Origin: Gavia stellata
Lineage: Eukaryota; Chordata; Aves; Gaviiformes; Gaviidae
Length of the DNA stretch: 64,000 bases
Direction of reading: 5' to 3'
Assembly (NCBI RefSeq): GCF_030936135.1
Contig: NC_082610.1
Span: 21,772,428 to 21,836,427 of the forward strand
Shown here: piece after piece, positions 1 through 64,000 of the stretch
Position numbering within the stretch: the stretch's first letter is position 1
Layout: the number at the start of each line of letters is the position of its first letter
The notes under the pieces: generated by a model
What the model was told of the DNA's origin: nothing
Database searches by the model: none
What the model saw: the letters and a program-made list of their open reading frames with translations, nothing else
Program-made: the position numbers and the translations under genes

Positions 1-1732
1 GTTCCAGTTCCTGAAATAGCTGCTGGCGTTGTTCCTTTAGCTTCTCATACCGATCATTCAGTTCAATCAGCTGGGCTCGAAACAGTGGCAGGGTTTCTTG
101 GAGTTCCCTCTGCAAGCACGCGCCTTCCTCTTCTTTCCTCTGGAGCGCTAGCTTTGCCTCCTCATGTTCCTTCTCCAGCTGTTGACTTCTTTCTGCCATT
201 TCTCTCATGGCTTTCAGTTCACGCTCTGCTTCTTCCAGTTGGCTTTGAAGACAGACGTTTCTTTGGATGGCAGAATCTCGCTCGCCTGCCACTCGTGCTA
301 GTAGTCCTTTCAGGTCAAGGTTTTCCGCTTGAACCTCTTCTGTCAAAGCCATCTGCCCATGGAGGCGAGCATTTTCTTGAGCCAGGCGGGTGTTTTCATT
401 TGTCATCTCCGTGAGCTGCACCTGTAACTGCTCACGAGTTCGGCTGTGGGTGCTCACATCATAGGAGCCTTCTTCGTCTGCAGCCACTTGGGCCTGAAGC
501 TCCACAGCCGCCTTCCGTGAGGAGTCGTCCTGCTTGTCCTGCGCCAGCAAAGCTCCGTCAGCCTCTCCTGTTTCTCCATCGCTCTGCTGAGGAAACGATG
601 CCACACACAGTTCCTCAGTAGAGCGTCGGATGGGCAGTGGCACTCGAGTATTGATCAGGCGATTGCTGGCCACCTGCAGTTGCCTGGATCTTTCTTCCAG
701 CCGCGAGGCGAGGCCAGCTAGTTGAGCACTTTTCTGCCGCAGCCAATCTGCCTCCTTGCGGGCTTCTGGAGAGCCTTTCTTTTTCAGGAGGCGGCTCTCC
801 ATCTCAAGGGCCCTCTCTTGCCTCTCCAGGTCTTCCAGAAGACGCTGCAGGTGGGTGTTCTGCTCCAGGAGCTGGCTGCACGTGCTGCCAAGCAGCACCA
901 AGTCTTCCGCCTCTGGCACCTGGAGCTGAGCATCTGCCACTGCCTTGCATGTTGTTTGCTGCCCAGCACTGTGGCTTTCGGGCAGTCTTTCCTGTAGTGC
1001 CGCCAGGGCCCGGGGCCCGTTTCTGCCAGAAGAGCAGGAGCTCTGCATCTCCTGATGGCCCTGGTGCGCAGGAGGGCCTTCGGGCTGGGCCGTGCTGGGG
1101 GAGGCGGGCAGCTCGCCCTCCAACTGCTGCAGGATGTATTTGGTGAAGAGTGTCCTCTCCAGCTGCAGCTGGTTCTGGAGGTGGTGGATGCGGGCGGGCT
1201 GGTAGCCATCTCTCTCCCAGCAGAGCTTGCTGAGGACATCCTGGAGCTTGCTCCGGGCCTCCCTGCCGCTGCTGCTGGGCCTCACCATCTCCTCGGCCAG
1301 CTGCCGCTGCAGGGCCCGTGTCTGGCCAAGGGCGGTGGTGCACTCGTGCCGCAGCAGCTCCTGTTCCTCGCGGAGCTCAGCCTCCTTCCAGCGCAGCAGC
1401 TGGCGGGTCTCCACCACCCGCTGCCGCTGGTTCAACTCCAGAAGCCGCTGCACCTCCTGAGCCTGTCGCTGCTCCCACTCGGACTGGAGCCGCTCTGCCA
1501 GGAGCTGCTGCTCCCTGCCCAAAGCCGCCTTCAGCTCCCGGGTTTCGGTAGCGAAGCAGCGGCGCAGCTCCTGGGTGCGGTGCCGCTCTTCCTCCAGCTC
1601 AGCCCGTAGCGCTTCCAGCTCCCGCCTCTGCTCCTCCTTCTGCGCAAGGCTGCTGGGGGCCTGCACCGGGGCCCGGCGGGGCGAGGGGCGGCTGCGCGCC
1701 ACGAGCCCCCTGCCCGCAACATCCCGCGTTAT
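1..1732 (-). CDS. RIMBP3: RIMBP3-like gene copy 1, cut by the window edge
   Basis: This is the 5' part of the gene, about 577 codons, running off the left edge before the SH3 domain. It encodes the N-terminal and central coiled coils seen in the complete copies. Like copy 2, it has ATA at the codon that is ATG in copies 3 to 11 (plus-strand tat at 1730-1732), and alanine at residue 21 where copies 3 to 11 have glycine. It has a private Arg at residue 369, where the others have Gln. No in-frame ATG lies upstream before the first stop, so it either starts elsewhere or is impaired at initiation. The frame is otherwise open to the edge. Confidence 0.8.
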   Translation of the reverse strand, partial: MTRDVAGRGLVARSRPSPRRAPVQAPSSLAQKEEQRRELEALRAELEEERHRTQELRRCFATETRELKAALGREQQLLAERLQSEWEQRQAQEVQRLLELNQRQRVVETRQLLRWKEAELREEQELLRHECTTALGQTRALQRQLAEEMVRPSSSGREARSKLQDVLSKLCWERDGYQPARIHHLQNQLQLERTLFTKYILQQLEGELPASPSTAQPEGPPAHQGHQEMQSSCSSGRNGPRALAALQERLPESHSAGQQTTCKAVADAQLQVPEAEDLVLLGSTCSQLLEQNTHLQRLLEDLERQERALEMESRLLKKKGSPEARKEADWLRQKSAQLAGLASRLEERSRQLQVASNRLINTRVPLPIRRSTEELCVASFPQQSDGETGEADGALLAQDKQDDSSRKAAVELQAQVAADEEGSYDVSTHSRTREQLQVQLTEMTNENTRLAQENARLHGQMALTEEVQAENLDLKGLLARVAGERDSAIQRNVCLQSQLEEAERELKAMREMAERSQQLEKEHEEAKLALQRKEEEGACLQRELQETLPLFRAQLIELNDRYEKLKEQRQQLFQELE

Positions 1733-1850
1733 GGTGTCGGCCACCAAACGCTGCTGCCCAAGGTCAGCAAGTGTTGCGTTCCTGGGGCTGCGAAGCCAAG
1801 ACAGCGTCTGCCACGGCCGGGGCGGGTGAGCATGGCCTTACGTGCATGTC

Positions 1851-4470: not shown

Positions 4471-6561
4471 CTACCAATCACTTGTCCCTGGAGAGTCTCC
4501 GCTGGCATCAGGTTGTCCCTCATCTGAAACTTCTTCAACAAGATTAGAGGGGACGAATCCTCTTGTGCCATCGGTCAGCTCTCCCACATACCAGCCGTCT
4601 TCATCCACGTCTCCAAAGACGTACACGTATTGTCCAGCAACTAGAGGAAGCTCTAGTTCAGGCCGCTCGTTGGGACCATCGAAAGGATCATAGCTGTATC
4701 GAGCTATGAACGCTCGAAGCTCTGCCGGTTGTTTTCTCATCGCCTCCAGCAGGAGGGACTCCTTGTCTGCTACCAGGTTAGCCTGGCACGGCCTGGAAAC
4801 GCTACGCTTGGATCTTGCTCTTTCCAGCCGTTCCAGTTCCTGAAATAGCTGCTGGCGTTGTTCCTTTAGCTTCTCATACCGATCATTCAGTTCAATCAGC
4901 TGGGCTCGAAACAGTGGCAGGGTTTCTTGGAGTTCCCTCTGCAAGCACGCGCCTTCCTCTTCTTTCCTCTGGAGCGCTAGCTTTGCCTCCTCATGTTCCT
5001 TCTCCAGCTGTTGACTTCTTTCTGCCATTTCTCTCATGGCTTTCAGTTCACGCTCTGCTTCTTCCAGTTGGCTTTGAAGACAGACGTTTCTTTGGATGGC
5101 AGAATCTCGCTCGCCTGCCACTCGTGCTAGTAGTCCTTTCAGGTCAAGGTTTTCCGCTTGAACCTCTTCTGTCAAAGCCATCTGCCCATGGAGGCGAGCA
5201 TTTTCTTGAGCCAGGCGGGTGTTTTCATTTGTCATCTCCGTGAGCTGCACCTGTAACTGCTCACGAGTTCGGCTGTGGGTGCTCACATCATAGGAGCCTT
5301 CTTCGTCTGCAGCCACTTGGGCCTGAAGCTCCACAGCCGCCTTCCGTGAGGAGTCGTCCTGCTTGTCCTGCGCCAGCAAAGCTCCGTCAGCCTCTCCTGT
5401 TTCTCCATCGCTCTGCTGAGGAAACGATGCCACACACAGTTCCTCAGTAGAGCGTTGGATGGGCAGTGGCACTCGAGTATTGATCAGGCGATTGCTGGCC
5501 ACCTGCAGTTGCCTGGATCTTTCTTCCAGCCGCGAGGCGAGGCCAGCTAGTTGAGCACTTTTCTGCCGCAGCCAATCTGCCTCCTTGCGGGCTTCTGGAG
5601 AGCCTTTCTTTTTCAGGAGGCGGCTCTCCATCTCAAGGGCCCTCTCTTGCCTCTCCAGGTCTTCCAGAAGACGCTGCAGGTGGGTGTTCTGCTCCAGGAG
5701 CTGGCTGCACGTGCTGCCAAGCAGCACCAAGTCTTCCGCCTCTGGCACCTGGAGCTGAGCATCTGCCACTGCCTTGCATGTTGTTTGCTGCCCAGCACTG
5801 TGGCTTTCGGGCAGTCTTTCCTGTAGTGCCGCCAGGGCCCGGGGCCCGTTTCTGCCAGAAGAGCAGGAGCTCTGCATCTCCTGATGGCCCTGGTGCGCAG
5901 GAGGGCCTTCGGGCTGGGCCGTGCTGGGGGAGGCGGGCAGCTCGCCCTCCAACTGCTGCAGGATGTATTTGGTGAAGAGTGTCCTCTCCAGCTGCAGCTG
6001 GTTCTGGAGGTGGTGGATGCGGGCGGGCTGGTAGCCATCTCTCTCCCAGCAGAGCTTGCTGAGGACATCCTGGAGCTTGCTCCGGGCCTCCCTGCCGCTG
6101 CTGCTGGGCCTCACCATCTCCTCGGCCAGCTGCCGCTGCAGGGCCCGTGTCTGGCCAAGGGCGGTGGTGCACTCGTGCCGCAGCAGCTCCTGTTCCTCGC
6201 GGAGCTCAGCCTCCTTCCAGCGCAGCAGCTGGCGGGTCTCCACCACCCGCTGCCGCTGGTTCAACTCCAGAAGCCGCTGCACCTCCTGAGCCTGTCGCTG
6301 CTCCCACTCGGACTGGAGCCGCTCTGCCAGGAGCTGCTGCTCCCTGCCCAAAGCCGCCTTCAGCTCCCGGGTTTCGGTAGCGAAGCAGCGGCGCAGCTCC
6401 TGGGTGCGGTGCCGCTCTTCCTCCAGCTCAGCCCGTAGCGCTTCCAGCTCCCGCCTCTGCTCCTCCTTCTGCGCAAGGCTGCTGGGGGCCTGCACCGGGG
6501 CCCGGCGGGGCGAGGGGCGGCTGCGCGCCACGAGCCCCCTGCCCGCAACATCCCGCGTTAT
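4471..6561 (-). CDS. RIMBP3: RIMBP3-like coiled-coil/SH3 protein, copy 2 (start codon changed to ATA)
   Basis: Residues are numbered from the codon that is ATG in nine copies; here it is ATA (plus-strand tat at 6559-6561). The next in-frame ATG is near residue 149, so initiation is doubtful. Domains: a short basic N-terminus, coiled coil at about 30-180 with the RIMBP3-type block RQLLRWKEAEL, a Ser/Gln-rich linker at about 205-260, coiled coils at about 285-365 and 430-585, then an SH3 domain at about 616-679. The SH3 shows ARYSYDPF, an acidic loop ending in DEDGWY, and GFVPSNLV, which are RIM-BP first-SH3 features. It ends 17 residues later. Human RIMBP3 is over 1,600 residues, intronless and linked to the spermatid manchette; FN3 repeats and later SH3 domains are missing here. 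TSPOAP1 (RIM-BP1) is the alternative relative. Signature: A21, N101, R143, H183, C376, E446, H458, R561. Confidence 0.8.
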   Translation of the reverse strand: MTRDVAGRGLVARSRPSPRRAPVQAPSSLAQKEEQRRELEALRAELEEERHRTQELRRCFATETRELKAALGREQQLLAERLQSEWEQRQAQEVQRLLELNQRQRVVETRQLLRWKEAELREEQELLRHECTTALGQTRALQRQLAEEMVRPSSSGREARSKLQDVLSKLCWERDGYQPARIHHLQNQLQLERTLFTKYILQQLEGELPASPSTAQPEGPPAHQGHQEMQSSCSSGRNGPRALAALQERLPESHSAGQQTTCKAVADAQLQVPEAEDLVLLGSTCSQLLEQNTHLQRLLEDLERQERALEMESRLLKKKGSPEARKEADWLRQKSAQLAGLASRLEERSRQLQVASNRLINTRVPLPIQRSTEELCVASFPQQSDGETGEADGALLAQDKQDDSSRKAAVELQAQVAADEEGSYDVSTHSRTREQLQVQLTEMTNENTRLAQENARLHGQMALTEEVQAENLDLKGLLARVAGERDSAIQRNVCLQSQLEEAERELKAMREMAERSQQLEKEHEEAKLALQRKEEEGACLQRELQETLPLFRAQLIELNDRYEKLKEQRQQLFQELERLERARSKRSVSRPCQANLVADKESLLLEAMRKQPAELRAFIARYSYDPFDGPNERPELELPLVAGQYVYVFGDVDEDGWYVGELTDGTRGFVPSNLVEEVSDEGQPDASGDSPGTSDW

Positions 6562-6679
6562 GGTGTCGGCCACCAAACGCTGCTGCCCAAGGTCAGCAAG
6601 TGTTGCGTTCCTGGGGCTGCGAAGCCAAGACAGCGTCTGCCACGGCCGGGGCGGGTGAGCATGGCCTTACGTGCATGTC

Positions 6680-9199: not shown

Positions 9200-9818
9200 T
9201 GTGCTGGTTTTGGCTGGGATGGGGTTAACTTTCTTCATAGCAGCTAGTATGGGGCTGTGTTTTGGATTGTATGGGGCTGTGTTTTGGATTTGGGGTGGAA
9301 ACAATGTTGATAAAGCAGGAATGTTTTAGTTACTGCTGAGCAGGGCTCACACAGCACCAAGGCCTTTTCTGCTCCTCACCCCACCCCACCAGCGAGTGGG
9401 CTGGGGGTGCACGGGAAGTTGGGAGGGGACACAGCCGGGACAGCTGACCCCAACTGACCAAAGGGATATTCCATACCATATGACATCATGCTCAGTATAT
9501 AAATCCGGGGGAGGAAGAGGGAAGGTGGGGACATTCGGAGTAATGGCGTTTGTCTTCCCGAGCAACCGCTACGCGTGATAGAACCCTGCTTCCCTGCAGA
9601 TAGCTGAACACCTGCCTGCCGACGGGAAGCGGTGAATTAATTCCTTCTTTCGCTTTGCTTCTCCGCGCAGTGTTCTTTTGCTCTACCTATTAAACTGTTT
9701 TTATCTCAGCCCATGAGTTTTCTCACTTTTACTCTTCTGGTTCTCTCCCCCACCCCACCTGGGGGGAGTGAGTGAGCGGCTGTGTGGTGATTAGTCCGGC
9801 TGGGCTTAAACCACGACA
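9200..9818 (+). repeat. 5' LTR of the left provirus
   Basis: 619 bp. It has a TATA box (tatataaa, about 9496-9503) and an ATTAAA poly(A) signal at 9689-9694. A 22-bp direct repeat at 9247-9268 and 9269-9290 is present in all four LTRs here and may mark a subfamily. Confidence 0.93.
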
Positions 9819-9826
9819 GTCCTTTT

Positions 9827-9844
9827 TGGCGCCCAACGTGGGGC
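9827..9844 (+). other. Primer binding site, tRNA-Lys (1,2) type
   Basis: TGGCGCCCAACGTGGGGC lies 8 bp after the 5' LTR. This 18-mer is the known complement of the 3' end of tRNA-Lys1,2, as used by several betaretroviruses and lentiviruses. The ERV-L group was named for a tRNA-Leu site, so the primer is a point of interest. Confidence 0.85.
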
Positions 9845-9930
9845 TTGAAGGGTTTGACATAATAACAGATTCAACAGAACTTCTATCCTTTAAAAGTTAT
9901 AGGTCAACATTAGTCTGTTTAATTTGCACC

Positions 9931-11742
9931 ATGATCTTCTTTTTGCTATATCTGTTAAAGATTGGCCTGCGCTTTTTCAGTATGCTGTGCTCTGCAGTAA
10001 TTAGTGACATTTTGCCTGGAAGATTTGTTTTTAAAACGCTGACCTTGAGCTGGGTAATCTGGTGTTTGGTCTCTGGGCTGAAGCCATTACTGTATTTTGG
10101 GTACCATCTCGTGGAGATACTTAACAATTATACTCCTTCTTCTGAGAGTTTTTTTTTGGAGGAAATACAGAACAGCACCCTTGCTTCCTTCTTCTGTGAT
10201 GTTGTCTCCCTCATGACAATGACCTCTCAGTACCTTGAACATCCTTGGGCAGTTAAAATACTTCTATTGATATTCCTTAGACATATTGCTTCAGTTTTCT
10301 CTAAGGTCAACAAGCAATTTAGGAATATGACCCAGGTTCCACGAGAGTATGGTCATGGGTGGCACGGCATGTGGGAGAATATGGGCAGGTATCTAGAGAA
10401 CTTCTCACCTCCAATGATCTGGACTTTCACCCCTGAACAATTACAGGATCCTGATGAAGTGGTAGAATGTTTGAAAAAAAAATGCCATGGCTACTCCAGA
10501 GAGGCACAACTTACTGCACTGTGCTGGGCCCTCGCCAGCATCTACCAAACACTGCTTGATACTATGCAGCACCCTCAGGGAGAAGAGAGGGGAAATAAAT
10601 CAGGCACTGTATCCGTCGCCCCTATAACTAAAAAGAAACAGTGGAAGCGGAAATCAGCTCGTTTAGTAAGGGATGAAGAAGCTTCTCCTAAGAGGGAAAA
10701 AGAATCAGAAGAGGCAGCCTCTTCTGCAGCAGAGCAGCCACAGGAACAGGACGAAGATACTGAGATAATCAATGAAACGGAAACCACCCGCTCCCTATCC
10801 CTAAGTGAGCTACGAGACATGCGAAAAGATTTCAGCCGTCAACCAGGGGAGCTAATTCTCAGCTGGTTACTTCGATGCTGGGATATTGGGGCCAGTAGTC
10901 AGGAATTGGAGGGTAAGGAAGCCCGGCAGCTGGGATCGCTTGCTAAGGACAAGGCCATTGACAAAGGTATTGGAAAAAAGGCAGGAGTCCTCAGTCTTTG
11001 GCAGCGACTCCTATCAAGTGTGAAGGACAGGTATCCCTTCAAGGAAGAACTTGCAAACTCTCGAAGGAAATGGACCAACATCGAGGGGGGCATCCAGTAT
11101 CTAAGGGAATTAGCCGTGTTGGAGGTAATCTATAATGACCACGCATGCAAAGACCCAGATGAAATCCAATGCACACGGTCCATGTGGCGCAAGTTTGTAC
11201 GGAATGCAGCAACGTCTTACACCCACACCCTGGCGATAATGAACTGGACAGACATTGAGGCACCAACTATAGATGAACTGGCGAGGCAACTCCGAGACTA
11301 CGAAGATAACCTTGCTCCCTCCATGTGTGCTTGTGTCTCGGCTGTGGACAGACACAGACTGACTCAAAACATGTTTGAGCAAGCTGAGAAGGGTAGGTTT
11401 TCCTCATCCACTCCAACCAAAGCCTCGGCTATTAAGAGTCAACTTTTCCCTGTTCAGGCGAAAGGGTACCGGTGGCGCACACCACGTGCAACCCTGTGGT
11501 TCTTCCTGCGTGACCAGGGGGAGGACATGAGGAAGTGGGATGGTCAACCTACCTGGAGACTAGAAGCTCGGGTGCAGGAATTGCAAGGAAAAACAACAGC
11601 TAAAAAGCATCCGTCCAGAAAAATGACTGCTCCAGTGTCTGTTGGACAAAGTAGAAGGGCTGACGGTACTTTTGATCCTGATGAAGGGACTTCTGTTATG
11701 CACGTACAAAAACCAAGTAATGAAGACTCAGACCAGGAGTAG
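9931..11742 (+). CDS. ERV-L type gag, left provirus
   Basis: A frame of about 603 codons from the first ATG after the primer site (the open frame also extends back into the LTR). The first 150 or so residues contain three strongly hydrophobic stretches, unusual for Gag. A charged Lys/Glu-rich segment follows, then a region of about 200 residues (from SLSELRDMRKDFSR onward) resembling the Gag/Fv1-like core of avian ERV-L elements. I see no CCHC zinc knuckle. gag and pol are in the same register, a layout that in gammaretroviruses goes with termination read-through; whether this family uses it I cannot say. Confidence 0.8.
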   Translation: MIFFLLYLLKIGLRFFSMLCSAVISDILPGRFVFKTLTLSWVIWCLVSGLKPLLYFGYHLVEILNNYTPSSESFFLEEIQNSTLASFFCDVVSLMTMTSQYLEHPWAVKILLLIFLRHIASVFSKVNKQFRNMTQVPREYGHGWHGMWENMGRYLENFSPPMIWTFTPEQLQDPDEVVECLKKKCHGYSREAQLTALCWALASIYQTLLDTMQHPQGEERGNKSGTVSVAPITKKKQWKRKSARLVRDEEASPKREKESEEAASSAAEQPQEQDEDTEIINETETTRSLSLSELRDMRKDFSRQPGELILSWLLRCWDIGASSQELEGKEARQLGSLAKDKAIDKGIGKKAGVLSLWQRLLSSVKDRYPFKEELANSRRKWTNIEGGIQYLRELAVLEVIYNDHACKDPDEIQCTRSMWRKFVRNAATSYTHTLAIMNWTDIEAPTIDELARQLRDYEDNLAPSMCACVSAVDRHRLTQNMFEQAEKGRFSSSTPTKASAIKSQLFPVQAKGYRWRTPRATLWFFLRDQGEDMRKWDGQPTWRLEARVQELQGKTTAKKHPSRKMTAPVSVGQSRRADGTFDPDEGTSVMHVQKPSNEDSDQE

Positions 11743-11796
11743 AGGGGCCCTGCCTTCGGCCAGGCGGAGGAAAGGGACAACCGAGTTTACTGGACT

Positions 11797-14700: not shown

Positions 14701-14925
14701 TCAAAACCCCTGCGCACTGTGGAAGGAGATAAGATTCCCGTAGTACATATAAGGAACTTGCTGGGAAAAACAGTCTGGGTTATTCCTTCCTCAGGAAAAG
14801 GTAAACCTATTCGCGGGGTTGTTTTTGCTCAGGGACCTGGGTGCACTTGGTGGGTAATGCAGAAGAAAGGGGAAGTCCAGTGTGTACCTCAAGGTAATTT
14901 AATTCTGGGTGAAACTAATCCATGA
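11797..14925 (+). CDS. ERV-L type pol (PR-RT-RNase H-IN), left provirus
   Basis: About 1,042 codons. Aspartic protease motif LVDTGAQ near residue 19; reverse transcriptase at about 140-370 with the YIDD motif at 294-297; RNase H with TDGS near 600; integrase with an HHCC zinc region at about 757-810 and a DDE core at VDYI, SDNGT and KIERY (about 826, 886 and 921). The integrase tail closes the frame. I see no dUTPase, which mammalian ERV-L elements carry after integrase. The stretch from 14926 to 15300 holds no env. Confidence 0.9.
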   Translation: MWIRWPGTSAPQEYKALVDTGAQCTLIPSDYKGAESICISGVTGGSQELSVLEAEVSLTGNEWQKHPIVTGPEAPCILGIDYLRRGYFRDPKGYRWAFGIAALNTEEIKQLSSLPGLSEDPSVVGLLQVKEQQVPIATMTVHRRQYRTNRDSLVPIHNLIRQLESQGVISKTHSPFNSPIWPVQKSNGEWRLTVDYRGLNEVTPPLSAAVPDMLELQYELESKAAKWYATIDIANAFFSIPLAAECRPQFAFTWRGIQYTWNRLPQGWKHSPTICHGLIQSALEQGKAPEHLQYIDDIIVWGNTAEEVFEKGRRIIQILLKAGFAIKQSKVKGPAQEIQFLGIKWQDGRRHIPMDVINKITAMSPPTNKKETQAFLGVVGFWRMHIPSYSLIVSPLYRVTRKKNDFEWGPEQQQAFEQIKQEIVRAVALGPVRTGQDVKNVLYTSAGDNGPTWSLWQKAPGETRGRPLGFWSRGYRGSEARYTPTEKEILAAYEGIRAASEVVGTEAQLLLAPRLPVLGWMFKGKIPSMHHATDATWSKWVALITQRARMGNPDRPGILEVIMDWPEGQNFGLSPEEVTRAEEAPLYNELSETEKQYALFTDGSCRIVGKHRRWKAAVWSPTRQVAETAEGQGESSQFAEVKAIQLALDIAERGKWPVLYLYTDSWMVANALWGWLQQWKQSNWQRRGKPIWAAELWQDIAARVENLVVKVRHIDAHIPKSRATEEHRNNERVDQAARIEVAQVDLDWEHKGELFIARWAHDTSGHLGRDATYKWARGRGVDLTIDAIAQVIHECETCAIIKQAKRLKPFWYRGRWLKYQYGEAWQVDYITLPRTRHGKQHVLTMVEATTGWMETYPVTHATARNTILGLEKQILWRHGTPERIESDNGTRFRNNLINTWAKEHGIDWVYHIPYHAPASGKIERYNAILKTTLKAMGAGTFKHWDTHLAEATWLVNTRGSASRPGPAQSKPLRTVEGDKIPVVHIRNLLGKTVWVIPSSGKGKPIRGVVFAQGPGCTWWVMQKKGEVQCVPQGNLILGETNP

Positions 14926-52137: not shown

Positions 52138-54774
52138 TGCGACGGCCACCAAACGCTGCTGCCCAAGGTCAGCAAGTGTTGCGTTCCTGGGGCTGCGAAG
52201 CCAAGACAGCGTCTGCCACGGCCGGGGCGGGTGAGCGTGGCCTTATGTGCATGTCCTGGCCCCGAGCTCACAGTGGAGGGGAGGGGCAGCATGGCCTTAT
52301 ATGGTAGGACCTGGCCCCGAGCTCACAGTGGAGGGGAGGGGCAGCATGGCCTTATATGGTATGACCTGGCCCCTCTGCGCACAAAGGAGGGCGGGCGGCA
52401 TTTTCCCCCAGAACAACGAGAAGACAAAGATGGGTTCCAAGCCATGCGCAAGAGAACCAAGTGACCTCTTCTGTACAAGTGGGTTTGCTGCTAGAAGAAA
52501 CCAGACCAAGCTGGCTGAAAGCGGCAAAGTTGCAACAAAACTGTGCAAACAGCTAATAAATATTTCACCCCCACCTTGACATTCCTCTTCAAGACTGCCC
52601 TCAGAAATGGCCGGGGGGTCATATGGAGCTGTGAGCAGCCCCGGCCCACGCAGCACCCTCTGCACAGCAGAAGGAGCCTGCCCTGCCGGGGCTTGCTCTT
52701 CCCAGCCACAGCTGCTCCCCAAAATGCTGCGGGCGGCTCCCCGGGCAGGCTGAGTGCTGACCCTGGCAGGCGGCAGAGCCCCTGCCCCAGCACACAGCCC
52801 CCCGGGGCGTAGGGACCCTGCTTGGAAGGACTGTCCTGGGCAGCCCTGGGTGCACAGCCAGCTTCACGCCCCGCATCAGCCGTACCCGGGAGAAGGCAGC
52901 TCTCATGGCCTGTCCCTCTGACGATGCAGTAGGGAAGCCGTGCTCAGCAGCACGTCTTCCGGCAACCTGGATAAACTGTGAGGCTTGTTCAGACAGATGC
53001 CTTGGATGTACCGGATTTTGGAGAGCCCTCCGGGATATTCATGTGCACTGCCCTGCAGCCAGCGTCTTACCATGTAAAGACCTGTGAAGATTTCTCCCAC
53101 CCTGGGAGCTCGGCTGTCCTGCCGCTAACCTCTCTCTGCGTCGCTCCGCTCCCCTCGCTGCCTGCAGGCAGTGCCCTCAGCCCTGCTGCGCTTTGCAGGG
53201 CAGCTGCTCCTGGGCAGAGCTGTCTCTCGCAAGCAATGCCCGCTTGCTATGAGCTGCCTCCGTCCCTGGAGCCCAGCCCAGCTCAGGAGCAGAGGCCCAG
53301 CCCAAGGCGTCACTTGCTCTGCCCCTTCTGGGCTCCCTGGAGATGTCCCAGGGGCTCCAGGGCTGACAGCTCCTGAAAGGCAGCAGAGTCACCCTTGGGG
53401 AAGGGACTTTTGAGCTGACTGCGCTAGTCACCGATTGTCCCTCTCTGAAGAGTGGAGAGAGACCGATTCCAAAAGCATGGTTTGTCCTTCCACAGCATGG
53501 CCGTCTATGGGAGCTGTAAACGTTCCCCTCTGGACACGGATATTCTTGAGCCGAAACAAAAAGAACATGCAGGCAGTGACAGGGAGCTGTTGGTTGGACC
53601 CTGTGCCAGGCAGGGATTCAGCTGAAGCAGTGCAGGCATCTCATCCCCAGCTGGAAGCCCTCGGGAGGAAGCAGCATTCAGCTCCCCCCATGCAGCCCAC
53701 AGACCCCCACTGTTAAGGGGTGTCAAGCCTGGCCACCACTTCCAGCCACTCCGGCCCAGCACCCCCTCGTGCCATGCCGCTGGAGCCCAGTACAGACCAG
53801 GAGCACCCAGTAGAGTTCTGCCTGGCTGCTGGAGCCCAGCCCGGTGCCTGGGGACCTGGAGCCTTTGCCCAGGCTGAGGGATGCAGCTGCCACTTTTCCG
53901 CGTGCAGCTGTTACTTGTAGCGAAGCTGAGCGTGCATCCCAGAGATTCACACGCACAGACGCACAGACGCACGGACGTGGACACGCAGAGGACACTGACA
54001 CGGCCAGTCACACAGACTGCCACAGATGAGGCGCTGCCGTCAACAGCACCCACACGCAGGACTCACATAAAACACAAACAGAGGCGGCCATGTCCCCTCC
54101 TCCTCGTGGGCTGCCAGAGGCAGGAGGCCGCTAGTGTAGGCACACCCACACACACACATGCCCACACGACACTCTCTACCTTCACAAGCGCACGCATGTG
54201 CATGGGTCCCCTGAGTACTGGCAGAGCCCCCCTTGGTTCCCCGGTACCCCTGCCCGGACCCCGGCCCTCTGACCCACCCCACGGGTCCCCTACTCGCTGC
54301 CTGGTCCCTCTAGGTGCTCCCTGCAAACATTCAGCACTCCCACATCTGTCCCGCAGGCACCCAACACTCGCCCGTCTCCCCAGGTGCCAGCGTGGGCCCT
54401 CTGCCTGCCTGATATCCCAGCCCGGACGCGAGGCCCCGCCTAGTCACCAGCTGCTCCAGCTTGAAGTTTGCTGGTGAAGGCACGCGCACACCCCCTGCAC
54501 CCCGGGTTTGGGGAAGATGCAGACACTCACAGAGCCTCTTACTTGCCTCCCTTGTGCTGGTCCCCCCCTGAGGTGGTTTTCAGGACACACACCGTTCCCA
54601 GCCCCGTGCCTGCTGGCCGAGACCCCCACTCGCTCCAGTAGCTGCACCGGGACCCATACCAGTAGCTGGCACCACAAGCCAGGGGTGCCTACACCCCCTG
54701 CTTGGCTGCGGTAGCTGGCAGCCAGTCCACCCACGCCAGCTCCCCCTGTAACCGGCACATCGTCCTTCCAGTTC
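52138..54774. other. Spacer 5' of gene 10, ending at the right provirus
   Basis: Two promoter repeats (52256-52365). It has the ctaataaa marker without the ggcatag marker. It ends in agttc at 54770-54774, the left target-site copy of the right provirus. No gene seen. Confidence 0.6.
52256..52365 (-). promoter_or_regulatory. Promoter minisatellite of gene 10: two repeats, two perfect CArG boxes
   Basis: Two repeats, both with perfect cores; the distal one ends in tatgacc. Confidence 0.5.
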
Positions 54775-55393
54775 TGTGCTGGTTTTGGCTGGGATGGGGT
54801 TAACTTTCTTCATAGCAGCTAGTATGGGGCTGTGTTTTGGATTGTATGGGGCTGTGTTTTGGATTTGGGCTGGAAACAATGTTGATAAAGCAGGAATGTT
54901 TTCGTTACTGCTGAGCAGGGCTGACACAGCACCAAGGCCTTTTCTGCTCCTCACCCCACCCCACCAGCGAGTGGGCTGGGGGTGCACGGGAAGTTGGGAG
55001 GGGACACAGCCGGGACAGCTGACCCCAACTGACCAAAGGGATATTCCATACCATATGACATCATGCTCAGTATATAAAGCCGGGGGAGGAAGAGGGAAGG
55101 TGGGGACATTCGGAGTAATGGCGTTTGTCTTCCCGAGCAACCGCTACGCGTGATAGAGCCCTGCTTCCCTGCAGATAGCTGAACACCTGCCTGCCGACGG
55201 GAAGTGGTGAATTAATTCCTTCTTTCGCTTTGCTTCTCCGCGCAGTGTTCTTTTGCTCTACCTATTAAACTGTTTTTATCTCAGCCCATGAGTTTTCTCA
55301 CTTTTACTCTTCTGGTTCTCTCCCCCACCCCACCTGGGGGGAGTGAGTGAGCGGCTGTGTGGTGATTAGTCCGGCTGGGCTTAAACCACGACA
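54775..55393 (+). repeat. 5' LTR of the right provirus
   Basis: 619 bp with the same TATA, ATTAAA and 22-bp direct repeat (54822-54865) as the left element. The Lys-type primer site follows at 55402-55419. Confidence 0.93.
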
Positions 55394-55505
55394 GTCCTTT
55401 TTGGCGCCCAACGTGGGGCTTGAAGGGTTTGACATAATAACAGATTCAACAGAACTTCTATCCTTTAAAAGTTATAGGTCAACATTAGTCTGTTTAATTT
55501 GCACC

Positions 55506-57318
55506 ATGATCTTCTTTTTGCTATATCTGTTAAAGATTGGCCTGCGCTTTTTCAGTATGCTGTGCTCTGCAGTAATTAGTGACATTTTGCCTGGAAGATT
55601 TGTTTTTAAAACGCTGACCTTGAGCTGGGTAATCTGGTGTTTGGTCTCTGGGCTGAAGCCATTACTGTATTTTGGGTACCATCTCGTGGAGATACTTAAC
55701 AATTATACTCCTTCTTCTGAGAGTTTTTTTTTGGAGGAAATACAGAACAGCACCCTTGCTTCCTTCTTCTGTGATGTTGTCTCCCTCATGACAATGACCT
55801 CTCAGTACCTTGAACATCCTTGGGCAGTTAAAATACTTCTATTGATATTCCTTAGACATATTGCTTCAGTTTTCTCTAAGGTCAACAAGCAATTTAGGAA
55901 TATGACCCAGGTTCCACGAGAGTATGGTCATGGGTGGCACGGCATGTGGGAGAATATGGGCAGGTATCTAGAGAACTTCTCACCTCCAATGATCTGGACT
56001 TTCACCCCTGAACAATTACAGGATCCTGATGAAGTGGTAGAATGTTTGAAAAAAAAATGCCATGGCTACTCCAGAGAGGCACAACTTACTGCGCTGTGCT
56101 GGGCCCTCGCCAGCATCTACCAAACACTGCTTGATACTATGCAGCACCCTCAGGGAGAAGAGAGGGGAAATAAATCAGGCACTGTATCCGTCGCCCCTAT
56201 AACTAAAAAGAAACAGTGGAAGCGGAAATCAGCTCGTTTAGTAAGGGATGAAGAAGCTTCTCCTAAGAGGGAAAAAGAATCAGAAGAGGCAGCCTCTTCT
56301 GCAGCAGAGCAGCCACAGGAACAGGACGAAGATACTGAGATAATCAATGAAACGGAAACCACCCGCTCCCTATCCCTAAGTGAGCTACGAGACATGCGAA
56401 AAGATTTCAGCCGTCAACCAGGGGAGCTAATTCTCAGCTGGTTACTTCGATGCTGGGATATTGGGGCCAGTAGTCAGGAATTGGAGGGTAAGGAAGCCCG
56501 GCAGCTGGGATCGCTTGCTAAGGACAAGGCCATTGACAAAGGTATTGGAAAAAAGGCAGGAGTCCTCAGTCTTTGGCAGCGACTCCTATCAAGTGTGAAG
56601 GACAGGTATCCCTTCAAGGAAGAACTTGCAAACTCTCGAAGGAAATGGACCAACATCGAGGGGGGCATCCAGTATCTAAGGGAATTAGCCGTGTTGGAGG
56701 TAATCTATAATGACCACGCATGCAAAGACCCAGATGAAATCCAATGCACACGGTCCATGTGGCGCAAGTTTGTACGGAATGCAGCAACGTCTTACACCCA
56801 CACCCTGGCGATAATGAACTGGACAGACATTGAGGCACCAACTATAGATGAACTGGCGAGGCAACTCCGAGACTACGAAGATAACCTTGCTCCCTCCATG
56901 TGTGCTTGTGTCTCGGCTGTGGACAGACACAGACTGACTCAAAACATGTTTGAGCAAGCTGAGAAGGGTAGGTTTTCCTCATCCACTCCAACCAAAGCCT
57001 CGGGCTATTAAGAGTCAACTTTTCCCTGTTCAGGCGAAAGGGTACCGGTGGCGCACACCACGTGCAACCCTGTGGTTCTTCCTGCGTGACCAGGGGGAGG
57101 ACATGAGGAAGTGGGATGGTCAACCTACCTGGAGACTAGAAGCTCGGGTGCAGGAATTGCAAGGAAAAACAACAGCTAAAAAGCATCCGTCCAGAAAAAT
57201 GACTGCTCCAGTGTCTGTTGGACAAAGTAGAAGGGCTGACGGTACTTTTGATCCTGATGAAGGGACTTCTGTTATGCACGTACAAAAACCAAGTAATGAA
57301 GACTCAGACCAGGAGTAG
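55506..57318 (+). pseudogene. ERV-L type gag, right provirus (broken)
   Basis: Counterpart of the left gag with the same hydrophobic N-terminal part and Fv1-like core region. It is broken, with about one break visible. Confidence 0.8.
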
Positions 57319-57372
57319 AGGGGCCCTGCCTTCGGCCAGGCGGAGGAAAGGGACAACCGAGTTTACTGGACT

Positions 57373-60300
57373 GTGTGGATTCGATGGCCTGGCACATCAG
57401 CCCCACAGGAGTATAAAGCTCTAGTGGACACCGGTGCACAGTGTACTCTAATTCCATCAGATTACAAGGGGGCGGAATCCATCTGTATTTCTGGAGTGAC
57501 AGGGGGATCCCAAGAACTGTCTGTGTTGGAGGCTGAAGTAAGCCTAACTGGGAATGAGTGGCAAAAGCACCCTATTGTGACTGGTCCAGAGGCTCCATGC
57601 ATCCTTGGCATAGACTATCTCAGGAGAGGGTACTTCAGAGACCCAAAAGGGTATCGATGGGCTTTTGGTATAGCTGCTTTGAATACGGAGGAAATTAAAC
57701 AGCTGTCTAGCTTGCCTGGTCTCTCAGAGGATCCTTCTGTGGTGGGGTTGCTGCAAGTTAAAGAACAGCAGGTGCCAATTGCTACCATGACAGTGCATCG
57801 GCGACAATATCGCACCAATCGAGACTCCCTGGTTCCCATCCACAACTTGATCCGTCAACTGGAAAGTCAAGGAGTGATCAGTAAGACTCATTCACCCTTT
57901 AATAGTCCCATATGGCCCGTGCAAAAATCTAACGGAGAGTGGCGGTTAACAGTGGACTATCGAGGCCTGAACGAAGTCACACCGCCGCTGAGTGCTGCCG
58001 TACCAGACATGCTAGAACTTCAGTATGAACTGGAGTCAAAGGCTGCCAAATGGTATGCAACAATAGATATCGCCAATGCGTTTTTCTCGATCCCTCTGGC
58101 AGCAGAGTGCAGGCCACAGTTTGCTTTCACATGGAGGGGTATCCAGTACACCTGGAATCGACTGCCCCAGGGGTGGAAACATAGTCCTACCATTTGTCAT
58201 GGGCTGATACAGAGTGCACTGGAACAAGGCAAAGCTCCCGAACACCTGCAGTATATTGATGACATCATTGTGTGGGGCAACACAGCGGAGGAAGTGTTTG
58301 AGAAGGGGAGAAGAATAATCCAGATTCTCCTGAAAGCTGGTTTTGCTATAAAACAAAGTAAGGTCAAAGGGCCTGCACAGGAAATTCAGTTTTTAGGAAT
58401 AAAATGGCAGGATGGGCGTCGCCATATCCCAATGGATGTGATCAATAAAATAACAGCCATGTCTCCACCAACTAACAAAAAGGAAACACAAGCTTTCTTA
58501 GGTGTTGTGGGTTTCTGGAGAATGCATATTCCAAGTTATAGTCTGATCGTAAGCCCTCTCTATCGAGTGACCCGGAAGAAGAATGACTTTGAATGGGGCC
58601 CTGAACAGCAGCAAGCCTTTGAACAAATTAAACAGGAGATAGTTCGTGCAGTAGCGCTTGGGCCAGTCCGGACAGGACAAGATGTGAAAAATGTACTTTA
58701 CACCTCAGCTGGGGATAACGGCCCCACCTGGAGCCTCTGGCAGAAAGCACCTGGAGAGACTCGAGGTCGACCTCTAGGGTTTTGGAGCCGGGGATATAGG
58801 GGATCTGAAGCCCGTTACACTCCAACTGAAAAAGAAATATTAGCAGCATATGAAGGAATTCGAGCTGCTTCGGAAGTAGTTGGTACTGAAGCACAGCTCC
58901 TTTTGGCCCCTCGATTGCCTGTGCTGGGCTGGATGTTCAAAGGGAAGATCCCCTCTATGCATCACGCAACTGATGCTACATGGAGTAAGTGGGTTGCACT
59001 GATAACGCAACGAGCTCGGATGGGAAACCCTGACCGCCCGGGAATCCTGGAAGTGATCATGGACTGGCCAGAGGGCCAAAACTTCGGACTGTCACCAGAG
59101 GAGGTGACTCGTGCTGAAGAGGCCCCTCTGTATAATGAATTATCAGAGACTGAGAAGCAATATGCCCTGTTTACAGATGGATCCTGCCGTATTGTGGGAA
59201 AACATCGAAGGTGGAAAGCTGCTGTGTGGAGTCCTACGCGACAAGTTGCAGAAACTGCTGAAGGACAAGGTGAATCAAGTCAGTTTGCAGAGGTGAAAGC
59301 CATTCAGCTGGCTTTAGATATTGCTGAACGAGGGAAATGGCCAGTACTTTATCTCTATACGGACTCATGGATGGTGGCAAATGCCCTGTGGGGGTGGCTA
59401 CAGCAATGGAAGCAGAGCAACTGGCAGCGCAGAGGTAAGCCCATCTGGGCTGCTGAATTATGGCAAGATATTGCTGCTCGGGTAGAGAACCTGGTTGTAA
59501 AAGTACGTCATATAGATGCTCACATACCCAAGAGTCGTGCCACTGAAGAACATCGAAACAATGAGCGGGTGGACCAAGCTGCTAGAATTGAAGTGGCTCA
59601 GGTGGATCTGGATTGGGAACATAAGGGTGAGCTATTTATAGCTCGATGGGCCCATGACACATCAGGACATTTAGGAAGGGATGCAACATACAAATGGGCT
59701 CGTGGTCGAGGGGTGGACTTGACTATTGATGCCATTGCACAGGTTATCCATGAATGTGAAACATGTGCCATAATCAAACAAGCTAAGCGGCTGAAGCCTT
59801 TTTGGTATAGAGGACGATGGCTGAAATATCAATACGGGGAAGCCTGGCAGGTTGATTATATCACACTACCACGAACCCGCCACGGGAAGCAGCATGTGCT
59901 TACAATGGTGGAAGCAACTACCGGATGGATGGAAACATACCCCGTGACCCATGCCACTGCCCGGAACACTATCTTGGGCCTTGAAAAGCAAATTTTATGG
60001 CGACACGGCACCCCTGAAAGAATTGAATCAGACAACGGGACTCGTTTCCGAAACAACCTCATTAACACCTGGGCCAAGGAGCATGGCATTGACTGGGTGT
60101 ATCACATCCCCTACCATGCACCAGCCTCCGGGAAAATTGAACGATACAACGCAATATTAAAAACTACACTGAAAGCAATGGGTGCTGGGACATTCAAGCA
60201 TTGGGATACACATTTAGCAGAAGCCACTTGGCTAGTTAACACTAGAGGCTCTGCCAGTCGACCTGGCCCTGCCCAATCAAAACCCCTGCGCACTGTGGAA

Positions 60301-60501
60301 GGAGATAAGATTCCCGTAGTACATATAAGGAACTTGCTGGGAAAAACAGTCTGGGTTATTCCTTCCTCAGGAAAAGGTAAACCTATTCGCGGGGTTGTTT
60401 TTGCTCAGGGACCTGGGTGCACTTGGTGGGTAATGCAGAAGAATGGGGAAGTCCAGTGTGTACCTCAAGGTAATTTAATTCTGGGTGAAACTAATCCATG
60501 A
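57373..60501 (+). CDS. ERV-L type pol, right provirus
   Basis: Same length and domain order as the left pol (protease, reverse transcriptase with YIDD, RNase H, integrase with HHCC and DDE). I noticed only one residue difference between the two pol frames, near the C-terminus. The stretch from 60502 to 60879 holds no env, only non-coding DNA and a purine-rich tract. Confidence 0.88.
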   Translation: MWIRWPGTSAPQEYKALVDTGAQCTLIPSDYKGAESICISGVTGGSQELSVLEAEVSLTGNEWQKHPIVTGPEAPCILGIDYLRRGYFRDPKGYRWAFGIAALNTEEIKQLSSLPGLSEDPSVVGLLQVKEQQVPIATMTVHRRQYRTNRDSLVPIHNLIRQLESQGVISKTHSPFNSPIWPVQKSNGEWRLTVDYRGLNEVTPPLSAAVPDMLELQYELESKAAKWYATIDIANAFFSIPLAAECRPQFAFTWRGIQYTWNRLPQGWKHSPTICHGLIQSALEQGKAPEHLQYIDDIIVWGNTAEEVFEKGRRIIQILLKAGFAIKQSKVKGPAQEIQFLGIKWQDGRRHIPMDVINKITAMSPPTNKKETQAFLGVVGFWRMHIPSYSLIVSPLYRVTRKKNDFEWGPEQQQAFEQIKQEIVRAVALGPVRTGQDVKNVLYTSAGDNGPTWSLWQKAPGETRGRPLGFWSRGYRGSEARYTPTEKEILAAYEGIRAASEVVGTEAQLLLAPRLPVLGWMFKGKIPSMHHATDATWSKWVALITQRARMGNPDRPGILEVIMDWPEGQNFGLSPEEVTRAEEAPLYNELSETEKQYALFTDGSCRIVGKHRRWKAAVWSPTRQVAETAEGQGESSQFAEVKAIQLALDIAERGKWPVLYLYTDSWMVANALWGWLQQWKQSNWQRRGKPIWAAELWQDIAARVENLVVKVRHIDAHIPKSRATEEHRNNERVDQAARIEVAQVDLDWEHKGELFIARWAHDTSGHLGRDATYKWARGRGVDLTIDAIAQVIHECETCAIIKQAKRLKPFWYRGRWLKYQYGEAWQVDYITLPRTRHGKQHVLTMVEATTGWMETYPVTHATARNTILGLEKQILWRHGTPERIESDNGTRFRNNLINTWAKEHGIDWVYHIPYHAPASGKIERYNAILKTTLKAMGAGTFKHWDTHLAEATWLVNTRGSASRPGPAQSKPLRTVEGDKIPVVHIRNLLGKTVWVIPSSGKGKPIRGVVFAQGPGCTWWVMQKNGEVQCVPQGNLILGETNP

Positions 60502-60879
60502 TTTGAGTTATATGTTACAGGAACTACTATAGCAGGAACCACCTGAACCAATTGAGGACAAGCCTTACAAGAAGCAGTGCAAGTGCAGCAGTGACCCGAC
60601 CTGAGCTAGCTGTGGTGCCCAATAACTCCATGCAATACAACACCTCTTCTCTCCTGAGTGACCACCATAACAGATGGAGCCCAAAGTTATGGACTACATG
60701 AACTCAATGGACATTTATGGACATTTTACAAATATTTCACCGGGGTGGTCCATAGACTAAGGGAAGGATATCTGTGTACTATATCAAAGGATGGGAAGGG
60801 CGATGATAGGGAATGAGAACGTTTTGGATGGTGTGAGACCTGAGCATGATGTAAATGGTATGGAATAAGGGGTGGAGAA

Positions 60880-61498
60880 TGTGCTGGTTTTGGCTGGGAT
60901 AGGGTTAACTTTCTTCATAGCAGCTAGTATGGGGCTGTGTTTTGGATTGTATGGGGCTGTGTTTTGGATTTGGGCTGGAAACAATGTTGATAAAGCAGGA
61001 ATGTTTTAGTTACTGCTGAGCAGGGCTGACACAGCACCAAGGCCTTTTCTGCTCCTCACCCCACCCCACCAGCGAGTGGGCTGGGGGTGCACGGGAAGTT
61101 GGGAGGGGACACAGCCGGGACAGCTGACCCCAACTGACCAAAGGGATATTCCATACCATATGACATCATGCTCAGTATATAAAGCCGGGGGAGGAAGAGG
61201 GAAGGTGGGGACATTCGGAGTAATGGCATTTGTCTTCCCGAGCAACCGCTACGCGTGATAGAGCCCTGCTTCCCTGCAGATAGCTGAACACCTGCCTGCC
61301 GACGGGAAGTGGTGAATTAATTCCTTCTTTCGCTTTGCTTCTCCGCGCAGTGTTCTTTTGCTCTACCTATTAAACTGTTTTTATCTCAGCCCACGAGTTT
61401 TCTCACTTTTACTCTTCTGGTTCTCTCCCCCACCCCACCTGGGGGGAGTGAGTGAGCGGCTGTGTGGTGGTTAGTCCGGCTGGGCTTAAACCACGACA
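60880..61498 (+). repeat. 3' LTR of the right provirus
   Basis: 619 bp with the 22-bp direct repeat at 60927-60970. It ends about 105 bp from the stop of gene 11, mirroring the left element and gene 3. Confidence 0.93.
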
Positions 61499-61603
61499 AG
61501 TTCCCACACACATGGCTTGAGAGTGAGATTACACAGAGAGATCGTTCAGGAAAAATTTAATAAGAAGGTATAAGAAGACAGGACAGACAGCATCTGTGTC
61601 CTG
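61499..61603. other. 3' flank of gene 11 between LTR and stop codon
   Basis: Same layout as the flank of gene 3: agttc, a GU-rich stretch on the minus strand, then ATTAAA at 61561-61556. Confidence 0.7.
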
Positions 61604-63694
61604 CTACCAATCACTTGTCCCTGGAGAGTCTCCGCTGGCATCAGGTTGTCCCTCATCTGAAACTTCTTCAACAAGATTAGAGGGGACGAATCCTCTTGTG
61701 CCATCGGTCAGCTCTCCCACATACCAGCCGTCTTCATCCACGTCTCCAAAGACGTACACGTATTGTCCAGCAACTAGAGGAAGCTCTAGTTCAGGCCGCT
61801 CGTTGGGACCATCGAAAGGATCATAGCTGTATCGAGCTATGAACGCTCGAAGCTCTGCCGGTTGTTTTCTCATCGCCTCCAGCAGGAGGGACTCCTTGTC
61901 TGCTACCAGGTTAGCCTGGCACGGCCTGGAAACGCTACGCTTGGATCTTGCTCTTTCCAGCCGTTCCAGTTCCTGAAATAGCTGCTGGCGTTGTTCCTTT
62001 AGCTTCTCATACCAATCATTCAGTTCAATCAGCTGGGCTCGAAACAGTGGCAGGGTTTCTTGGAGTTCCCTCTGCAAGCACGCGCCTTCCTCTTCTTTCC
62101 TCTGGAGTGCTAGCTTGGCCTCCTCATGTTCCTTCTCCAGCTGTTGACTTCTTTCTGCCATTTCTCTCATGGCTTTCAGTTCACGCTCTGCCTCTTCCAG
62201 TTGGCTTTGAAGACAGACGTTTCTTTGGATGGCAGAATCTCGCTCGCCTGCCACTCGTGCTAGTAGTCCTTTCAGGTCAAGGTTTTCCGCTTGAACCTCT
62301 TCTGTCAAAGCCATCTGCCCATGGAGGCGAGCATTTTCTTGAGCCAGGCGGGTGTTTTCATTTGTCATCTCCGTGAGCTGCACCTGTAACTGCTCACGAG
62401 TTCGGCTGTGGGTGCTCACATCATAGGAGCCCTCTTCGTCTGCAGCCACTTGAGCCTGAAGCTCCACAGCCGCCTTCCGTGAGGAGTCGTCCTGCTTGTC
62501 CTGCGCCAGCAAAGCTCCGTCAGCCTCTCCTGTTTCTCCATCGCTCTGCTGAGGAAACGATGCCACACACAGTTCCTCAGTAGAGCGTTGGATGGGCAGT
62601 GGCACTCGAGTATTGATCAGGCGATTGCTGGCCACCTGCAGTTGCCTGGATCTTTCTTCCAGCCGCGAGGCGAGGCCAGCTAGTTGAGCACTTTTCTGCC
62701 GCAGCCAATCTGCCTCCTTGCGGGCTTCTGGAGAGCCTTTCTTTTTCAGGAGGCGGCTCTCCATCTCAAGGGCCCTCTCTTGCCTCTCCAGGTCTTCCAG
62801 AAGACGCTGCAGGTGGGTGTTCTGCTCCAGGAGCTGGCTGCACGTGCTGCCAAGCAGCACCAAGTCTTCCGCCTCTGGCACCTGGAGCTGAGCATCTGCC
62901 ACTGCCTTGCATGTTGTTTGCTGCCCAGCACTGTGGCTTTCGGGCAGTCTTTCCTGTAGTGCCGCCAGGGCCCGGGGCCCGTTTCTGCCAGAAGAGCAGG
63001 AGCTCTGCATCTCCTGATGGCCCTGGTGCGCAGGAGGGCCTTCGGGCTGGGCCGTGCTGGGGGAGGCGGGCAGCTCGCCCTCCAACTGCTGCAGGATGTA
63101 TTTGGTGAAGAGTGTCCTCTCCAGCTGCAGCTGGTTCTGGAGGTGGTGGATGCGGGCGGGCTGGTAGCCATCTCTCTCCCAGCAGAGCTTGCTGAGGACA
63201 TCCTGGAGCTTGCTTTGGGCCTCCCTGCCGCTGCTGCTGGGCCTCACCATCTCCTCGGCCAGCTGCTGCTGCAGGGCCCGCGTCTGGCCAAGGGCGGTGG
63301 TGCACTCGTGCCGCAGCAGCTCCTGTTCCTCGCGGAGCTCAGCCTCCTTCCAGCGCAGCAGCTGGCGGGTCTCCACCACCCGCTGCCGCTGGTTCAACTC
63401 CAGAAGCCGCTGCACCTCCTGAGCCTGTCGCTGCTCCCACTCGGACTGGAGCCGCTCTGCCAGGAGCTGCTGCTCCCTGCCCAAAGCCGCCTTCAGCTCC
63501 CGCGTTTCGGTAGCGAAGCAGCGGCGCAGCTCCTGGGTGCGGTGCCGCTCTTCCTCCAGCTCAGCCCGTAGCGCTTCCAGCTCCCGCCTCTGCTCCTCCT
63601 TCTGCGCAAGGCTGCTGGGGGCCTGCACCGGGCCCCGGCGGGGCGAGGGGCGGCTGCGCGCCACGAGCCCCCTGCCCGCAACATCCCGCGTCAT
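61604..63694 (-). CDS. RIMBP3: RIMBP3-like coiled-coil/SH3 protein, copy 11 (next to the right provirus)
   Basis: Complete 696-residue frame from ATG at 63694, GTCGCA start class. Signature: N101, Q143, H183, C376, E446, H458, W561, plus a private Gln at 160 where the others have Arg. The 3' LTR of the right provirus ends at 61498, about 105 bp beyond the stop and in opposite orientation, the same arrangement as at copy 3. It is nevertheless not the closest match to copy 3 at residues 183, 446, 458, 512, 540 and 623. The poly(A) signal is at 61561-61556 (minus). The window ends about 300 bp into its 5' flank. Confidence 0.86.
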   Translation of the reverse strand: MTRDVAGRGLVARSRPSPRRGPVQAPSSLAQKEEQRRELEALRAELEEERHRTQELRRCFATETRELKAALGREQQLLAERLQSEWEQRQAQEVQRLLELNQRQRVVETRQLLRWKEAELREEQELLRHECTTALGQTRALQQQLAEEMVRPSSSGREAQSKLQDVLSKLCWERDGYQPARIHHLQNQLQLERTLFTKYILQQLEGELPASPSTAQPEGPPAHQGHQEMQSSCSSGRNGPRALAALQERLPESHSAGQQTTCKAVADAQLQVPEAEDLVLLGSTCSQLLEQNTHLQRLLEDLERQERALEMESRLLKKKGSPEARKEADWLRQKSAQLAGLASRLEERSRQLQVASNRLINTRVPLPIQRSTEELCVASFPQQSDGETGEADGALLAQDKQDDSSRKAAVELQAQVAADEEGSYDVSTHSRTREQLQVQLTEMTNENTRLAQENARLHGQMALTEEVQAENLDLKGLLARVAGERDSAIQRNVCLQSQLEEAERELKAMREMAERSQQLEKEHEEAKLALQRKEEEGACLQRELQETLPLFRAQLIELNDWYEKLKEQRQQLFQELERLERARSKRSVSRPCQANLVADKESLLLEAMRKQPAELRAFIARYSYDPFDGPNERPELELPLVAGQYVYVFGDVDEDGWYVGELTDGTRGFVPSNLVEEVSDEGQPDASGDSPGTSDW

Positions 63695-64000
63695 TGCGAC
63701 GGCCACCAAACGCTGCTGCCCAAGGTCAGCAAGTGTTGCGTTCCTGGGGCTGCGAAGCCAAGACAGCGTCTGCCACGGCCGGGGCGGGTGAGCGTGGCCT
63801 TATGTGCATGTCCTGGCCCCGAGCTCACAGTGGAGGGGAGGGGCAGCATGGCCTTATATGGTAGGACCTGGCCCCGAGCTCACAGTGGAGGGGAGGGGCA
63901 GCATGGCCTTATATGGTAGGACCTGGCCCCTCTGCGCACAAAGGAGGGCGGGCGGCATTTTCCCCCAGAACAACGGAGAAGACAAAGATGGGTTCCAAGC
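63695..64000. other. Start of the spacer 5' of gene 11, cut by the window edge
   Basis: Holds the two promoter repeats of gene 11 (63813-63922) and the first bases of the spacer. Confidence 0.6.
63813..63922 (-). promoter_or_regulatory. Promoter minisatellite of gene 11: two repeats, two perfect CArG boxes
   Basis: Two repeats, both with perfect cores; same form as genes 8 and 9. Confidence 0.5.

Follow-up and report, generated by a model that had tools for sequence, protein, structure and literature searches.

The window analysed here is a 64,000-bp stretch of the genome of the red-throated loon, Gavia stellata (taxid 37040), at C17:21,772,428-21,836,427, and it lies inside a longer head-to-tail gene array. 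It carries eleven copies of a RIMBP3-type gene, ten with complete frames and an eleventh truncated by the left window edge, all on the minus strand (Table 1). The original prediction of eleven same-strand copies, amplified in a bird, was therefore borne out, the bird being Gavia stellata. All ten complete frames have the same length, 701 codons between stops or 696 counted from the conserved ATG, and about 2.8 kb of non-coding sequence lies between neighbouring frames. The predicted period of 4.83-4.88 kb holds for 8 of the 10 inter-copy intervals (4,828-4,885 bp); the other two, c1-c2 and c9-c10 (11,554 and 11,557 bp), are longer because each contains a 6.72-kb provirus, a pair of elements that the prediction did not mention. 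Since identity to unit c3 is 97.6-99.5% across 2.4-4.9 kb of aligned sequence, chance is excluded as the source of the repeated frames.

Table 1. Features of the 64,000-bp window (positions within the window)
Feature	Position	Strand	Description
c0	1..1747	-	5' part of RIMBP3-type ORF; ATA for conserved ATG; complete and open in neighbouring locus L001
c1 ORF	4471..6576	-	701 codons stop to stop, open, ATA for conserved ATG
Provirus 1	9200..15919	+	6.72 kb, two 619-bp LTRs, target duplication AGTTC (5 bp), pol frame
c2 ORF	16025..18130	-	open, codon 6 = ATG
ATTAAA	20805..20810	-	43 bases past c3 stop; inspected in c3 only
c3 ORF	20853..22958	-	open, codon 6 = ATG
55-bp tandem repeat upstream of c3	23040..23234	-	3.6 copies, CCATATAAGG boxes
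c4 ORF	25736..27841	-	open, codon 6 = ATG
c5 ORF	30620..32725	-	open, codon 6 = ATG
c6 ORF	35504..37609	-	open, codon 6 = ATG
c7 ORF	40389..42494	-	open, codon 6 = ATG
c8 ORF	45218..47323	-	open, codon 6 = ATG
c9 ORF	50047..52152	-	open; identical to record P0008 over 489/489 residues, in three blocks
Provirus 2	54775..61498	+	same unit position as provirus 1; pol frame open, gag-placed frame shorter
c10 ORF	61604..63709	-	open, codon 6 = ATG

The record matched by c9 (P0008) is the database entry 'RIMS-binding protein 3A-like, partial [Gavia stellata]'. The unit varies in length mainly through its 55-bp repeats, which lie immediately 5' of the gene, are present in 11/11 window copies at 2.2-3.6 per copy and match the 5' part of a Grus record (E 1e-11). 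All eleven copies carry CCATATAAGG at -167, -222 and/or -277 from the start; it matches the CArG motif perfectly and includes a TATA-like core. The ATTAAA past the c3 stop is likely a poly(A) signal. A second gene in the unit was sought among scanned ORFs of 273 and 252 aa, neither of which had a Pfam match, and an Rfam scan of the window returned no family above threshold. Each 4.85-kb unit would be a self-contained, independent gene, in which the upstream repeats could act as a promoter, the uninterrupted 696-codon frame may form a single exon, and the poly(A) signal seen in one copy may be used.

Extent of the array and exchange among its copies

The array spans C17:21,633,767-21,955,942 (322 kb). 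Its left edge falls inside a unit, and its right edge is 0.44 Mb from the contig end. It contains about 60 units, of which 55 were seen and about 5 are estimated where neighbouring copies lie two or three periods apart. Left of the window are 28 copies (27 located by blastn in loci, one of them interrupted by a gap and another truncated, plus 1 more), the window itself holds 11, and 16 lie to the right (15 among the best 40 candidates, plus 1 more). Of 627 candidates the best 40 were scored, so this search has no bearing on other contigs. A count of one or two copies, which would have overturned the original prediction, does not fit this assembly, in which 55 diverged copies are seen. A 200-N assembly gap interrupts the array at C17:21,729,020-21,729,221. 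In the right flank (L030, C17:21,956,000-21,964,000), degenerate retroviral pieces are present, and reading the list of frames by eye revealed no host gene.

The copies diverge by about 0.6-1% in a mosaic pattern, and the nearest relative of each unit shifts along its length. Four-gamete violations affected 721 of the 1,378 pairs of informative sites in nine units, and in a PHI-like test on the same number of units close sites were more compatible than expected (P = 0.013). Because the copies differ slightly and are mosaics, we conclude that they exchange sequence. Divergence rises slightly with distance along the array (r = 0.31, permutation P = 0.0004, 23 units), neighbours being more alike. 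Of all the units seen, the last full one at the right diverges most (three pieces of it are 95.4-97.1% identical to c3, compared with 97.6-99.5% in the window), as unequal exchange would leave it.

The two proviruses share one insertion point in the unit, which lies 105 bases beyond the stop codon of the following gene, and both have the AGTTC duplication and 619-bp LTRs. The pol frame measures 1,042 codons in each; the gag-placed frame extends for 656 codons in provirus 1 (9772-11742) and is listed at 554 in provirus 2 (55347-57011). In provirus 1, the gag-placed frame had no Pfam match and no env frame of at least 250 codons was present. The four LTRs (9200-9818, 15301-15919, 54775-55393 and 60880-61498) differ pairwise at 4-9 of 619 sites, whereas five 1-kb interior pieces (10200-15199) differ between the two proviruses by 3 substitutions and one one-base gap; one idea is that the greater LTR divergence arose via conversion with other LTRs. 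The host sequence around the two proviruses diverges within 31 and 89 bases. We infer that the provirus was copied recently and that its flanks were reshuffled by exchange with empty units. Near the right array edge, a solo LTR of exactly 619 bp, with AGTTC on both sides, occupies the same unit site and has 3-6 mismatches to the four window LTRs. The spacing of two more array intervals, 11.6 and 11.8 kb, suggests two further proviruses.

Identity and domain content of the protein

A Pfam search with the frame detected RIMB1_N (PF25566; 81.7 bits against a cut-off of 28.5, 5e-23) and a first SH3 domain (PF07653, SH3_2; 37.9 bits, above the Pfam cut-off), for which the best solved relative is the SH3 of RIM-BP2 (1wie, E 1e-26). 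RIMB1_N is also found in Tyto TSPOAP1, so this domain does not separate RIMBP3 from TSPOAP1. The residues that precede it match RIMBP3 of rat (36% over 1-419), Sarcophilus (49% over 1-220) and Dromiciops (54% over 33-220), and the alignment to mammalian RIMBP3 starts at residue 1 in three of four records and at residue 33 in one. In contrast, nothing in Tyto TSPOAP1 aligned upstream of residue 282 at E 0.01; residues 1-220 therefore match mammalian RIMBP3 and not TSPOAP1. Thirty homologues were listed, and the 17 named ones, from birds and reptiles, comprise 11 annotated as RIMS-binding protein 3, 2 with other names and 4 hypothetical or uncharacterized. Among homologues aligned over the whole query, identity is 72-80% for five (Grus and 4 others), 53-57% for three, 44% for goose and 40% for duck. 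The RIMBP3-like identity originally proposed is thus supported by RIMB1_N, the SH3 domain and an N-terminus that matches mammalian RIMBP3 and not TSPOAP1. Membership in an unrelated coiled-coil/SH3 family is ruled out by the Pfam matches, the 1wie match, the homologue names and the RIMBP3-type N-terminus.

The loon protein shares with human RIMBP3, RIMBP3B and RIMBP3C and mouse Rimbp3 the N-terminal region (unlike TSPOAP1), RIMB1_N and the first SH3, and it is far shorter, at 696 aa versus 1,605-1,807 aa in four mammalian records. Full RIMBP3 has FN3, Ig-like, second and third SH3 domains; in the Pfam scan of the loon ORF, FN3, Ig_RIMBP2, SH3-II and SH3-III were missing. When C-terminal remnants were sought in the unit by tblastn with the C-terminal halves of seven relatives, matches below E 0.01 fell only on the SH3-I codons. 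Eight relatives were scanned with Pfam: rat, turtle and TSPOAP1 records have three SH3 stretches with FN3 and Ig, kiwi and tinamou relatives have one SH3 with FN3 and Ig, and the Grus, Gallus and Anas records, like the loon, show no further Pfam domain once the first SH3 ends. A quick tree of 31 rows (P0016, P0023 and P0071 left out; midpoint root; deep branches untrustworthy) contains a group of 16 rows, at support 100, that unites nine named neognath rows, window included, with seven others. The RIMBP3-like proteins of Grus, goose, duck and chicken fall in this group, and within it the window joins Grus and three other rows, again at support 100. Judged from its sequence, the loon protein is a short, neognath-type RIMBP3 and not an equivalent of full RIMBP3. 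The few records available suggest that the C-terminal half of RIMBP3 was lost in neognaths. An AlphaFold2 model built from 11 sequences (pLDDT 62.5, pTM 0.22) contains long helices and a weak SH3, and was too weak for a fold search.

Several related records have features of their own. Three neognath proteins (P0009, P0010 and P0013) differ from the loon type as mosaics with a second N-terminal type: their N-terminal half resembles short raptor and stork RIMBP3-like proteins and their C-terminal half the window type, with a switch near residue 350. They may have arisen in other birds, by fusion of two RIMBP3 types or by exchange between them. P0017 (Gallus gallus RIMS-binding protein 3-like) has, by eye, many internal coiled-coil repeats of about 50 residues and the longest end branch of the tree. 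P0068, a RIMBP3-like protein of the tinamou Eudromia elegans, retains FN3 and Ig, though crested tinamou spermatids reportedly have no manchette microtubules (PMC8812575, excerpt).

Integrity of the frames and selection on the protein

Across the array, 46 complete frames could be read (25 left of the window, 11 of the window and 10 to the right; the gap-split copy was unscored), and 40 of them are open (19, 11 and 10, respectively). The remaining six copies hold 21 one-base indels, all at different places, and fall into two clusters, one of three consecutive copies (C17:21,659,669-21,671,484) and one of three around the 200-N gap. Consensus errors are the likelier cause of these indels, and the clusters and the gap possibly reflect low consensus quality. 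Codon 6, the start of several other bird records, is ATG in 44 of 46 copies and ATA in c0 and c1. The original statement that all complete copies are open is right for the window (10/10), although c0 and c1 carry ATA at the conserved ATG; in the wider array the figure is 40/46. Because two of 46 are without the ATG and six others have indels, part of the array may consist of dead copies.

The eleven window copies differ at 127 columns, 83 non-coding and 44 in the ORF, with mean pairwise differences of 0.97% and 0.66%, respectively. Expected changes were computed from the mutation spectrum of the non-coding part, with ranges covering the spectrum models. Replacement changes in the 11 copies numbered 20 against 45-47 expected, silent changes 20 against 15-19, and stops 0 against 2.5-2.8, and a slightly different way of counting gave 21 against 50, 20 against 20 and 0 against 2.7, respectively; without CpG sites, the values were 11 against 30-33 for replacement and 11 against 11-13 for silent changes. 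A set of 23 units, from which indel copies and units split between loci were left out, gave 23 replacement changes against 62.6 expected, 23 silent against 24.9 and 0 stops against 3.4 (ratio 0.40, P = 0.0017). The dN/dS check proposed originally thus has an answer, an NG86 ratio of 0.315 over 10 copies (bootstrap 95% 0.16-0.62) and replacement changes at 37% of expectation over 23 units. Constraint appeared weaker when private changes alone were counted, with a pN/pS of 0.46 (P = 0.03) in the 23 units and ratios of 0.41-0.71 in the 11 copies, where one of six versions was significant. In 35 of the 40 open frames, 39 replacement changes, 36 silent changes and 0 stops were counted, without a matched expectation; these 35 frames encode 29 different proteins. 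None of the four indel events in window units lies in the ORF, a weak result by itself.

Purifying selection therefore acts on the protein at the level of the array. Given the deficit of replacement changes, with silent changes at expectation, we conclude that selection, and not youth or homogenisation alone, keeps the frames open. Youth, homogenisation and selection for dosage had all been offered at the outset; constraint on the frames and sequence exchange are retained, and youth or homogenisation as a sufficient cause is not. The test does not separate constraint on every copy from constraint on some copies spread by exchange, and the signal could stem from a few working copies whose sequence was spread by conversion.

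Interpretation of the amplification

A young, neutral, satellite-like amplification, in which recency and homogenisation would keep the frames open, accounts for several features of the locus. Whole units are about 99% alike, the 2.8 kb of non-coding sequence included, exchange among units is evident, and the loss of the ATG in c0 and c1, which are close relatives and neighbours, implies that a start-less copy was itself duplicated. However, silent changes accumulate at the non-coding rate while replacement changes and stops fall short as described above, and the position of the indel events, weak by itself, points the same way; we consider neutral amplification unlikely. We give scarcely any weight to the proposal that the assembler multiplied a few real copies. 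The gap and the unshared indels, three of the six affected copies being around that gap, do mark a difficult assembly, but the number of variable columns among the window copies, their mosaic patterns, the diversity of the encoded proteins and the two defined array edges are at odds with such an artefact, as is a single site found with a provirus, with a solo LTR and empty.

Selfish or drive-linked amplification, in which the product would give the carrier sperm or chromosome a transmission advantage, is likewise credited with little probability. It would fit a gene that belongs by homology to a spermatid-gene family and is present in many copies, a protein whose identity to the five closest full-length relatives is just 72-80%, and the proximity of the array to the contig end; the signal within the array, however, is purifying and not diversifying. 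A germline-restricted chromosome, also raised originally, is described in songbirds (PMC6884545, excerpt); the loon is not a songbird, and we found no evidence for such a chromosome here.

The locus is probably best explained as a tandem array of some 60 copies of a C-terminally shortened RIMBP3, made of self-contained, exchanging units under purifying selection. Unequal crossing-over would have raised the copy number, and the observed mosaics would reflect copies that still exchange. The most likely gain would be a high dose of a scaffold composed of a long coiled coil and one SH3, which, by analogy with the mammalian gene, would tie cargo or membranes to the manchette in sperm-head shaping. 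In the cited portions of two papers, mouse RIM-BP3 works with HOOK1 and KIF3B at the manchette during this process (PMC5260884, PMC8812575). Against this, the manchette is, according to the excerpted part of the review PMC8812575, little known beyond mouse and absent in crested tinamou, and the mouse function may not carry over because the loon protein is without the C-terminal half of RIMBP3. For the loon, a dosage role at the manchette is offered as a best guess. We regard as doubtful the more far-reaching proposal that, after reduction of RIMBP3 to a coiled coil and the first SH3, extreme post-meiotic dosage, sperm competition or drive has kept the array near a chromosome end. If true, copy number, rather than domains, would have become the evolving quantity in a lineage with a shortened RIMBP3.

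Human RIMBP3 copies are few, compared with about 60 in the loon array. Closer parallels are found in chicken, where, as excerpts of PMC9974502 describe, protein-coding genes occur in tandem arrays, HINT1W on the W being a 5,648-bp unit present 52 times, and amplicons are testis-biased or testis-specific on 7 of 10 dot chromosomes. The loon array resembles these amplicons in its many intact copies arranged head to tail, and differs from them in that the chicken amplicons comprise other genes and reside on dot chromosomes or the W, whereas the loon array is on a 22.4-Mb contig. If testis expression holds, the array would belong with the testis-expressed amplicons of chicken.

A literature search covering few subscription journals found no bird RIMBP3 array among the titles and abstract openings listed. 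The locus represents a large amplification, in a bird that is not a passerine, of a gene family linked to male fertility, and that search did not find it. The differences among copies suffice for copy-specific RNA and protein tests, and one site seen with a provirus, with a solo LTR and empty provides a record of exchange. Finally, if neognaths did lose the C-terminal half of RIMBP3, this would bear on which part of RIMBP3 works in sperm shaping.
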